22,639 bases of DNA from a virus. Numbering within the stretch: position 1 is the stretch's first letter; every line of letters begins with the position of its first letter. Shown in pieces: positions 3,439 to 6,766 of this stretch. The notes below the pieces were generated by a model. The model was not told the DNA's origin, ran no database searches, and saw nothing but the letters and a program-made list of their open reading frames with translations. A program made the position numbers and the translations under genes. The stretch spans positions 1-22,639 of the IMG/VR virus record IMGVR_UViG_3300009408_000034. One strand, 5' to 3'.

Positions 3439-3724
3439 TGTTGCTGCGACTGTGTTGTGCGGGATTAGTAAAGTCATAGCACCAATAGCTGTTGAAACCG
3501 GAGTCTTTTCTTTATCTAACCCTGCCGACTTGATGCAGACAGTGGTGGCGTTGGGGGACAAGCATGGCATATATATAGTGCCAGAGTTTAAGCATATTGG
3601 GGATGAAGTAATATCAACGAGCTGGTGGGAAGCAGACGGCCCGAAAAGTTTTTATGTAGAAGCCTGTGATACCTACACCGAAGCCATCCGCCATGCTGTT
3701 ATGGCTTTGAAGGAGAATAAATGA
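3407..3724 (+). CDS. Hypothetical phage protein (105 residues), source of the 104-base duplication
   Basis: It begins MTDKDFILQSDVAATVLCGI and ends in an alpha/beta-looking segment (SWWEADGPKSFYVEACDTYT, then EAIRHAVMALKENK). The last part ends in a helix whose 'TxxEAIxxAVxxLK' pattern recurs in many small phage proteins. Bases 3617-3720, coding this C-terminal third, are repeated almost exactly at 4770-4873. Its start overlaps the preceding gene by eight bases, and its stop forms ATGA with the next start. Function is unknown. It looks intact here, so I regard this as the parental copy of the repeat. Confidence 0.55.
   Translation: MTDKDFILQSDVAATVLCGISKVIAPIAVETGVFSLSNPADLMQTVVALGDKHGIYIVPEFKHIGDEVISTSWWEADGPKSFYVEACDTYTEAIRHAVMALKENK
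3617..3720 (+). repeat. 104-base direct repeat, copy A
   Basis: Bases 3617-3720 equal 4770-4873 (offset 1153) except G at 3632 against A at 4785. Copy A is the in-frame 3' third of the gene at 3407-3724. The match stops at the stop/start region of that gene, just before the next ATG. Confidence 0.92.
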
Positions 3725-4707: not shown

Positions 4708-4889
4708 ATGACTAAAGAATGGATAAGCCCACATACAGAAGGTTTGCCGAAATCAGAGGGACCAGTGCTACGAGCTGGTGGGAAACAGACGGCCCGAAAA
4801 GTTTTTATGTAGAAGCCTGTGATACCTACACCGAAGCCATCCGCCATGCTGTTATGGCTTTGAAGGAGAATAACAATGCCACAAAGTAA
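4708..4889 (+). pseudogene. Chimeric remnant: foreign gene start joined out of frame to a copied gene tail
   Basis: From the ATG at 4708 the frame reads MTKEWISPHTEGLPKSEGPV and then enters the 104-base repeat out of frame, ending at 4812 after 34 residues. The opening 'EWIS....LP.....VL' loosely resembles the N-terminus of DUF551-type small phage proteins. The repeat's own coding frame is open from an ATG at 4719 to 4889, giving 56 residues that end in SWWETDGPKSFYVEACDTYT and the EAIRHAVMALK helix. That ATG lacks a convincing ribosome site. I infer a recombinational fusion that destroyed the first gene and left only the C-terminal third of the second. Translation of the 56-residue form cannot be excluded. 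Confidence 0.6.
4770..4873 (+). repeat. 104-base direct repeat, copy B
   Basis: This is the second copy of 3617-3720 with a single base difference. It follows unrelated sequence and precedes the start of the gene at 4876. The right end of the match is two bases before that start codon, so the copied piece carries a gene tail together with the GGAGAATAA ribosome-site region for the next gene. Confidence 0.92.
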
Positions 4890-5145: not shown

Positions 5146-5285
5146 GTCTATATCAGATTAAACATAGCGAAAAGCCAAGTGAGGTACGTAATAGGATTGT
5201 AGCTCTATGCGGTGATGTGCCGCGAATTGAACTTTTTGCCCGTGAAAAAACTCCCGGCTGGGATGCTTGGGGTAATGAGGTATAA
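5142..5285 (+). pseudogene. C-terminal remnant of an MT-A70 family DNA adenine methyltransferase
   Basis: The 47-residue frame reads MSLYQIKHSEKPSEVRNRIV, then ALCGDVPRIELFAREKTPGW and DAWGNEV. The pattern 'HSxKPxxVRxRIxxLxGDxPRIELFARxxxxGWDxWGNEV' is the C-terminal signature of phage and bacterial MT-A70 N6-adenine methyltransferases. A full enzyme has roughly 170-230 residues, including the DPPW catalytic motif, and none of that precedes this piece. It begins exactly where the 54-base repeat ends, so the upstream part was probably lost in the same recombination. The TAA stop at 5283 lies inside the first attC-like element. Catalysis is impossible from this fragment alone. Confidence 0.8.
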
Positions 5286-5338
5286 CGACCATTATTAAGC
5301 GGTAAGCGTAGCGAATCCGCTGGAATTAATTGTTATGT
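5280..5338 (+). other. attC-like site 1 (integron 59-base-element-like)
   Basis: The element runs from GTATAAC (5280-5286) to GTTATGT (5332-5338), 59 bp. ATAAC (5282-5286) pairs with GTTAT (5332-5336). Inside, ATTA (5291-5294) pairs with TAAT (5327-5330), TT (5295-5296) with AA (5324-5325), and AGCGG (5298-5302) with CCGCT (5317-5321), leaving unpaired bases on one side as attC stems do. The stop codon of the preceding frame lies in its TAAC box, a habit of integron cassettes. The end box differs from consensus GTTRRRY at one purine. A simple stem-loop without integron origin is the alternative. Confidence 0.55.
5282..5305 (+). repeat. 24-base direct repeat, copy 1 (5' half of attC-like site 1)
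   Basis: Bases 5282-5305 are identical to 5532-5555. The repeat begins ATAACGACCATTATTAAGCG and includes the stop codon of the preceding reading frame in both places. The 3' halves of the two elements differ. Confidence 0.93.
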
Positions 5339-5358
5339 TGACTATAGGAGCAAGGGGT

Positions 5359-5535
5359 ATGACAGATTTTTATAGCAAGTTTCACCCGAAAGCAAGAACA
5401 GGAAAAGAGTGTAAAAAAGTTAAGTGCGAGAGATATAATGATTACTTGGCGTGGAGGCTAGGGAGCGATGCCTTAGAGTATTGTATGGCGTGTAAAAACG
5501 CTCACGTATCACAGTATAAGAGCAGCAAAACATAA
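5359..5535 (+). CDS. Four-cysteine zinc-knuckle-like protein in a cassette-like unit (58 residues)
   Basis: The ATG at 5359 is chosen because AGGAG (5346-5350) lies eight bases upstream; an in-frame ATG at 5335 falls inside the attC-like end box and has no ribosome site. The protein is MTDFYSKFHPKARTGKECKK, then a VKCERYNDYLAW segment and CMACKNAHVSQYK. C18-x4-C23 and C42-x2-C45 would form one zinc site. The family is not recognised, though short phage proteins with 'CxxCKxAxVxQY' exist to my recollection. The gene fills a 252-bp unit bounded by attC-like elements, and its TAA stop lies in the second one. The role is unknown. Confidence 0.6.
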   Translation: MTDFYSKFHPKARTGKECKKVKCERYNDYLAWRLGSDALEYCMACKNAHVSQYKSSKT

Positions 5536-5590
5536 CGACCATTATTAAGCGGTAACGCTTTTTGTTGTCCGCTTGATGTTTTTGTTAGGC
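5530..5590 (+). other. attC-like site 2 (integron 59-base-element-like)
   Basis: This 61-bp element runs from ACATAAC (5530-5536) to GTTAGGC (5584-5590). GTTAGGC matches the GTTRRRY core perfectly. TAAC (5533-5536) pairs with GTTA (5584-5587), and AAGCGG (5547-5552) pairs with CCGCTT (5569-5574) around a 16-base loop. Between these stems pairing is weak. The first 24 matching bases are the same as in site 1, while the loop and 3' half differ, as in neighbouring attC sites. The stop codon of the 58-residue gene (5533-5535) lies within it. Integrase would cut between G5584 and T5585 if it is a true attC. Confidence 0.58.
5532..5555 (+). repeat. 24-base direct repeat, copy 2 (5' half of attC-like site 2)
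   Basis: This is identical to 5282-5305. The two copies are 250 bases apart and each overlaps the stop codon of the reading frame before it. Confidence 0.93.
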
Positions 5591-5615: not shown

Positions 5616-6362
5616 ATGACAATAAGACTAATGCAGGGCGATTGTCTTGAGCGAATGAAAGAAATTGAGAGCGGATCGGTTGATATGATATTGACTGACC
5701 CACCTTACGGCACGACTGCCTGTAAATGGGATAGTGTAATTCCGTTAGAACCAATGTGGGGGCAGTTGAAACGAGTGATTAAGCATAACGGAGCTATTGT
5801 AATGACAGCGAGCCAGCCGTTTACGACGACGCTGATAGCAAGCAATATGAAGATGTTTAAGTATTGCTGGGTATGGGAGAAAAACTTAAAGACTGGCAAT
5901 CTAAACGCAAGGAGAATGCCGATGGGAGGGCATGAGGATATAGCTATTTTTTGCGAAAAAAGCCCCACATATAACCCGCAAAAAAGACAAAGGATAAATG
6001 AGCAAAAGTCTGGGAATAAGAAGAACTCGAAAACCACTGTTTACGGTGGGCAAGGTGAGATGTATTTAGACAGGCAATCTGATTTAATAAATCCAGATAC
6101 AATTTTACGCGGAATTAAGTGTGTGCATAATTCTAGTGGTAAGGTACACCCCACACAAAAACCAATAGGCTTGATGGAATACCTAATCAAAACCTACACT
6201 AACGAAGGCGAGACGGTGTTAGACTTCACGATGGGCAGCGGAACCACTGGAGTAGCATGTAAAAATCTAAACCGAAGCTACATCGGCATTGAGCTGGATG
6301 AGGGATATTTCAAGATTGCACAAGACAGGATTAGTGCTGCAGAGGGTAGGAGTGAGGAGTAG
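5616..6362 (+). CDS. Site-specific DNA N6-adenine (or N4-cytosine) methyltransferase, beta class
   Basis: The 248-residue enzyme has the catalytic motif IV early (LTDPPYG, residues 26-32). The AdoMet-binding motif I comes late (VLDFTMGSGTTGVA, 201-214) after HPTQKP (178-183), and IELDEGYF follows (225-232). This order, with a target-recognition segment of about residues 95-165 between, defines the beta class. DPPY suggests adenine-N6 more often than cytosine-N4. It probably protects phage DNA from host restriction; no restriction enzyme gene is visible. It starts 26 bases after the second attC-like site, has AAGGA ten bases before the ATG, and ends five bases from the convergent holin gene. 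No attC-like element follows it. Confidence 0.9.
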   Translation: MTIRLMQGDCLERMKEIESGSVDMILTDPPYGTTACKWDSVIPLEPMWGQLKRVIKHNGAIVMTASQPFTTTLIASNMKMFKYCWVWEKNLKTGNLNARRMPMGGHEDIAIFCEKSPTYNPQKRQRINEQKSGNKKNSKTTVYGGQGEMYLDRQSDLINPDTILRGIKCVHNSSGKVHPTQKPIGLMEYLIKTYTNEGETVLDFTMGSGTTGVACKNLNRSYIGIELDEGYFKIAQDRISAAEGRSEE

Positions 6363-6367
6363 GCGGA

Positions 6368-6766
6368 TCATTTGCGCTTCATTACCTCGGTGACTTTGGG
6401 GGCCAATTTCTCAAGAGAGCGTCCTGTCACATACCCGCCCAAACCAATCTGCAACAGCGTCCATGCTTCTTTTGCAAGCGGATTTGGTAGCCAGCCAAAG
6501 CTATCTGCAACCACAAGCGCAAGGAAGGTCAGCATCGTAATGGGTCTCCAGCTTCGCTGCATCCATGAGTTGCCCTGCGCCTCCGCGATGATGATGCTGG
6601 ATTTTGATTCGAGTAGCTGCTTCTCATAGTCCATCATCTTCTCTGCCATTTGCGTTTGCAGAGCGAACATTTGACCACGGAGTTCGTTTGCTTTGTCTTT
6701 ATCCTCGACAAACTTACCGATCAGGTCGGTGACTGGCGTAACTAATCCTGAAATAAAACTCCACAT
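6368..6766 (-). CDS. Holin, 3TM / gene-transfer-agent holin type
   Basis: The 132-residue protein begins MWSFISGLVTPVTDLIGKFV and has an amphipathic charged helix (residues 22-58). The family-typical segment AEAQGNSWMQRSWRPITMLT (61-80) follows, leading into membrane helices at about 75-93 and 100-116, with a basic C-terminus (VTEVMKRK). The 'EAxGxSWxQRxWRPxxML' signature is that of 3TM holins, best known from gene transfer agents of alphaproteobacteria. It would permeabilise the inner membrane and release the M15 endolysin encoded upstream in the same operon. AAAGGAGG lies upstream of its ATG. It is the last gene of the late block. Confidence 0.8.
   Translation of the reverse strand: MWSFISGLVTPVTDLIGKFVEDKDKANELRGQMFALQTQMAEKMMDYEKQLLESKSSIIIAEAQGNSWMQRSWRPITMLTFLALVVADSFGWLPNPLAKEAWTLLQIGLGGYVTGRSLEKLAPKVTEVMKRK

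Follow-up and report, generated by a model that had tools for sequence, protein, structure and literature searches.

Integron attC sites antiparallel to the neighbouring genes in the early operon of a tailed phage

A first-pass annotation of IMG/VR phage record IMGVR_UViG_3300009408_000034 described two attC-like elements around a small early gene. Are they integron attC sites, and if so, how is the array built and what could move its genes? We analysed all 22.6 kb of the record (the window), which encode a holin, a portal, a major head protein and a RecE-like exonuclease. Plus-strand early genes run up to position 6362 and minus-strand late genes start at 6368. The phage is a tailed one, and the array occupies the 3' end of its early operon. 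The window holds no tRNA and no Rfam family. Elsewhere among the early genes, a 95-nt stretch is duplicated with 97% identity at the 3' ends of two genes (3630-3724 and 4782-4876). The duplication lies apart from the attC array, and its second copy belongs to a short, possibly truncated gene. The 88-aa protein encoded at 4876-5142 matches the PADLOC PtuB model weakly (E 0.003), probably by chance.

Two attC sites in the window

The two elements, of 59 and 61 nt, have a run of 24 identical bases in common (5282-5305 and 5532-5555). As first described, the stop codons of the upstream frames lie inside their TAAC boxes (TAA at 5283-5285 and 5533-5535), the elements end in GTTATGT and GTTAGGC, and their end-to-end spacing is 252 bp.

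Our first attC finder relied on arm pairing alone and was dropped as too permissive. The score for linked pairs is less decisive by itself, being reached by 5 of 200 shuffled windows, and we therefore used a covariance model, R1. It was built from 57 aligned attCs of bacteria and known integrons, namely intI-adjoining arrays of gammaproteobacterial genomes and the R388, Shewanella and V. anguillarum integrons; no window sequence entered it, and its E-values are rough, as the calibration was shortened. R1 finds just two significant matches in the window, exactly at the coordinates first proposed; the third-best match reaches 12.3 bits. The covariance search that the first-pass annotation had called for thus places both elements well above background. 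In 769 kb of other phage DNA, R1 returns only 10 matches at E≤1, mostly in multi-site arrays.

The two sites are also linked in the manner of neighbouring cassettes: the R' box of attC2, GTTATGT, is the exact reverse complement of the R'' box of attC1, ACATAAC. The same link joins 52/81 and 30/50 adjacent viral attC pairs and 66/85 bacterial ones, with 7% expected by chance. With two attCs 192 bp apart and no intI, the locus is a CALIN (a cluster of attCs without integrase) rather than a complete integron, the record having neither intI nor a Phage_integrase domain. By sequence and linkage, both elements are genuine integron attC sites.

Folding of the bottom strands had also been put forward at first as a check. 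The plus strand, which is the bottom strand in this orientation, does pair the R box, but its energies stay near those of shuffled sequences (z of -0.7 and -1.7, against -5.4 for the bottom strand of an R388 attC). The two window sites are therefore possibly poor or decayed substrates, and their activity is uncertain.

Table 1. Features of the array and of its borders in the window.
Feature	Position	Strand	Details
MT-A70 methyltransferase, C-terminal 47 codons	5142..5285	+	N-terminal part missing
attC1	5280..5338	-	59 nt; R1 24.3 bits, E 5.1e-4; minus-strand canonical reading: R'' ACATAAC (5338-5332), R' GTTATAC (5286-5280); predicted cleavage G^TTATAC, between 5285 and 5286
Complete cassette unit	5286..5535	-	250 bp; attC1 and antiparallel 58-aa gene, between predicted cleavage points
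58-aa cassette gene	5359..5535	+	TAA stop is the last codon of the unit
attC2	5530..5590	-	61 nt; R1 28.2 bits, E 5.9e-5; minus-strand canonical reading: R'' GCCTAAC (5590-5584), R' GTTATGT (5536-5530); predicted cleavage between 5535 and 5536
N6_N4 DNA methyltransferase gene	5616..6362	+	Pfam PF01555, E 7.7e-34

Orientation and limits of the cassettes

Read in the direction of its gene, a canonical attC runs RYYYAAC-AA...GC-GTTRRRY, with AA after R'' in 74 and GC before R' in 71 of 85 sites. The window sites take this form on the minus strand only. A weight matrix made from bacterial sites, in which AAC and GTT are ignored, scores attC1 at 15.5 in reverse and -4.9 in the sense of the gene, and attC2 at 19.1 and -7.6, respectively; as a control, the sense score was the higher one for all 57 left-out bacterial sites. 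R1 likewise assigns both sites to the minus strand, antiparallel to the genes. Hence this is not the canonical gene cassette, in which the gene is parallel to its attC and upstream of it: here the attCs are on the minus strand and the gene on the plus strand.

The orientation of the sites moves the limits of the unit. The locus had been read as a gene followed by a downstream attC in the same orientation, and this part of the first description does not hold. With the attCs on the minus strand, the cassette instead spans 5286-5535 and comprises the upstream attC1 and the 58-aa gene, ending at its stop codon. A comparison of two other loci that carry the gene (L122 and L123) agrees with such a unit: they have the upstream attC in common (88% identity) and not the downstream one (62%; shuffled controls averaged 54%, with a maximum of 70%).

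By the same logic of orientation, attC2 and the antiparallel methyltransferase gene that follows it probably form a second unit. No GCCTAAC box marks its distal boundary downstream. Relatives of this methyltransferase also come after an antiparallel attC in three array loci (L013, L044 and L057), and all 10 R1 matches in the 769 kb of phage DNA mentioned above are antiparallel to the methyltransferase, weak single sites in L012 and L063 included.

On the other side, the left edge of the array coincides with the stop codon of the MT-A70 gene fragment, which covers positions 131-172 of the 172 in the Pfam MT-A70 profile. The homology of its DNA with that of Vibrio phages NF and BT-1011 stops at this very codon. 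We found no close relative with an empty or swapped site, and among phages related by their major head protein none of the loci retrieved spans the junction. One candidate empty site (L003), with a methyltransferase after GTTAGGC and no attC, was rejected as too distant at 66% protein identity.

The cassette gene and its orientation in other phages

The 58-aa protein has relatives in nine other viral contigs, with 51-90% identity across the ten aligned proteins. Within the sensitivity of a peptide-pattern and tblastn search, none was found in bacterial genomes, phage records or plasmids. Four cysteines (C18, C23, C42 and C45) are invariant and may bind zinc; the predicted structure is of low confidence (mean pLDDT 62.5).

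In seven of the nine relatives the gene stands inside an attC array (L082, L083 and L119-L123), on contigs that are phage by their terminase or other phage genes. The first-pass annotation had proposed to look for the protein beside attC arrays. All R1 matches at these loci are antiparallel to the gene. The upstream R' and downstream R'' around it are exactly complementary in L083, L119, L120, L121 and L122, over up to 9 nt in L119; L123 has one mismatch, and L082 shows no such complementarity. When viral contigs were scanned for an exact 23-nt match to the half-site shared by attC1 and attC2, none was found; two single phage attCs, compared with phage records by blast, gave none either.

In the two other relatives, L124 (764-919) and L125 (4998-5132), the 58-aa gene is a plain phage gene with no adjoining attC. 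It could be a non-cassette ancestor or descendant of the cassette gene.

We then counted orientations more widely, with an orientation-blind pattern scan that added 77 viral-contig stretches (200 attC matches altogether), and took as the gene the longest ORF that lies between two neighbouring attCs. Bacterial arrays gave 78 parallel cassettes to 1 antiparallel, and phage contigs that have virion genes but lack IntI gave 28 antiparallel to 3 parallel (Fisher p about 1e-21); by contig, the same phage set splits into 15 antiparallel, 2 parallel and 3 undecided. Restricted to linked pairs, the counts are 61 parallel to 0 for bacteria and 1 parallel to 13 antiparallel for phages (p about 1e-13). 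These p-values are indicative only, since cassettes that share an array are not independent of one another and taking the longest ORF is a noisy way of calling genes: the conserved 58-aa gene itself is miscalled in L119. Viral contigs with no detected terminase are mixed, with 30 antiparallel to 14 parallel. The firmest support for the rule comes from the sets of homologous genes, which are antiparallel throughout: eight phages with the 58-aa gene and three array loci with the methyltransferase.

One record classed as viral (G041, IMGVR_UViG_2834908352_000001; loci L283/L289) is isolate-derived and carries a full-length intI above the curated cut-off, together with a parallel array of 12 attC sites, that is, a complete integron.

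Clusters of attCs without integrase are already known in the bacteriophages TJE1, P12002L, PH101 and MW202573, and some of their sites are IntI1 substrates in published assays (Qi et al. 2023, PMC9892861). The window array belongs to that kind: it shares with those clusters the lack of an integrase and the presence of methyltransferase genes among the cassettes, whereas a consistent antiparallel layout of gene and attC is not described in the text of that paper. When we rescored these phages, MW202573 proved antiparallel, P12002L weakly so (13.9 bits) and TJE1 parallel; PH101 gave no attC match in the 97 kb searched. In MW202573 (L304), the attCs at 2069-2132 and 2619-2703 are on the minus strand and the local genes on the plus strand, and its general layout, early genes on the plus strand with convergent late genes, resembles that of the window. 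The literature that we searched, which leaves out most subscription papers and all bioRxiv preprints, contains no report of a consistent antiparallel layout, nor of a cassette gene confined to phages.

The sedentary chromosomal integrons of Shewanella, Marinomonas, Vibrio and relatives offer a second comparison. They agree with the phage arrays in their attC consensus, in the R'/R'' link and in having units of one gene; however, their cassettes are parallel (the 78:1 above) and adjoin intI, while the phage arrays are antiparallel and have none.

A probable role of host integrases, and the possibilities of relics and of a phage cassette pool

The substrate of an integron integrase is the bottom strand of attC in folded form, which the enzyme cuts at the R box. 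The first-pass annotation had seen no integrase here, and indeed the record contains neither intI nor a tyrosine recombinase domain; being partial, it may have an integrase beyond its ends. The tyrosine recombinase domain is likewise missing from 11 of 13 other array-bearing phage records. For these reasons the natural catalyst would be a host integrase, and past mobility and a benefit to the phage are likewise inferred. The claim that a phage carries integron cassettes is supported by the covariance scores and by the relatives of the gene in attC arrays of other phages. The locus is probably a short array of antiparallel integron cassettes, attC1 with the 58-aa gene and attC2 with the methyltransferase, exchanged by host integrases.

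In such a scheme, the integron integrase of the infected host would recognise the bottom strand of the attC in its folded form (here, the coding strand of the phage) and would exchange cassettes at the R box. The phage could then swap small accessory genes, methyltransferases included, without a recombinase of its own. Replication might add to this. Phage forks that run with the early genes would have the bottom strands of the attCs as template for the lagging strand, the arrangement that increases cassette excision in V. cholerae (PMC11023631). The likeness lies in this possible placement of the bottom strands; in the V. cholerae superintegron the whole array was inverted in the laboratory and gene and attC are still parallel, whereas here each unit has its gene and attC antiparallel. 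Measured along the top strand of the attCs, GC skew is above zero for 47 of 51 bacterial arrays and below zero for 20 of 23 phage ones, but it cannot establish the direction of replication, as skew in the window tracks gene direction.

The best-surviving alternative, though an unlikely one, is that the sites are relics. The array would have entered once, through an integron-bearing host, and then been inherited vertically or moved by homologous recombination of the phage, with the attCs now serving as mere short shared homologies. Weak folding of the window sites would fit, as would the missing distal boundary of the methyltransferase unit, the 24 bases common to attC1 and attC2, and the recombination genes at hand: the RecE-like exonuclease of the window and RecT-like proteins in relatives (the 50.7-kb G001 and L119). 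Against it, the R'/R'' link, which is accounted for by site-specific recombination but not by homologous exchange, is preserved in the window and in 60-64% of adjacent viral pairs, and the same gene adjoins quite different attCs in different phages.

We consider it very improbable that the phages have an unrecognised recombinase of their own for antiparallel attC-like sites, lying outside the window or belonging to a new family. The window is a partial record, and antiparallel cassettes are nearly absent from the bacterial arrays examined. However, G001 and the 47-kb G002 show no IntI and no Phage_integrase domain, the single contig with IntI above cut-off among 50 viral ones (G041) has a parallel array, and the phage sites fit the bacterial model. 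Least credible of all is a chance resemblance to attC of ordinary hairpins between genes, for instance transcription terminators or replication repeats: a terminator-like match does occur within attC2 (5547-5560; four such matches in the region, with 2.1 expected), but it spans just part of the site, and as regards attC identity this reading is refuted by R1 scores above background, the R'/R'' link and the occurrence of the same gene within multi-site arrays of other phages. The elements may nonetheless have a secondary role in termination.

Exchange by host integrases, the reading we prefer, leaves the source of the cassettes to be considered. Since the orientation of gene to attC is a built-in property of each cassette, and nearly all bacterial cassettes are parallel, the phage units would not simply have been captured from host arrays. 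We suggest, tentatively and at somewhat less than even confidence, that phages keep a cassette pool separate from the bacterial one, marked by the antiparallel gene; its members may arise in phages, and their orientation may favour shuffling by a hijacked host integrase. Such a class of cassettes would circulate in phages and be marked by its antiparallel genes; the one gene family tested has no bacterial relative.

The origin of integron cassettes, and the way in which genes acquire an attC, is a long-standing open question. If the proposed pool exists, phages would be a separate reservoir of cassettes and possibly their birthplace. A further prediction is that invading phages borrow the integrase of hosts with integrons and can in this way swap methyltransferases and other small genes.
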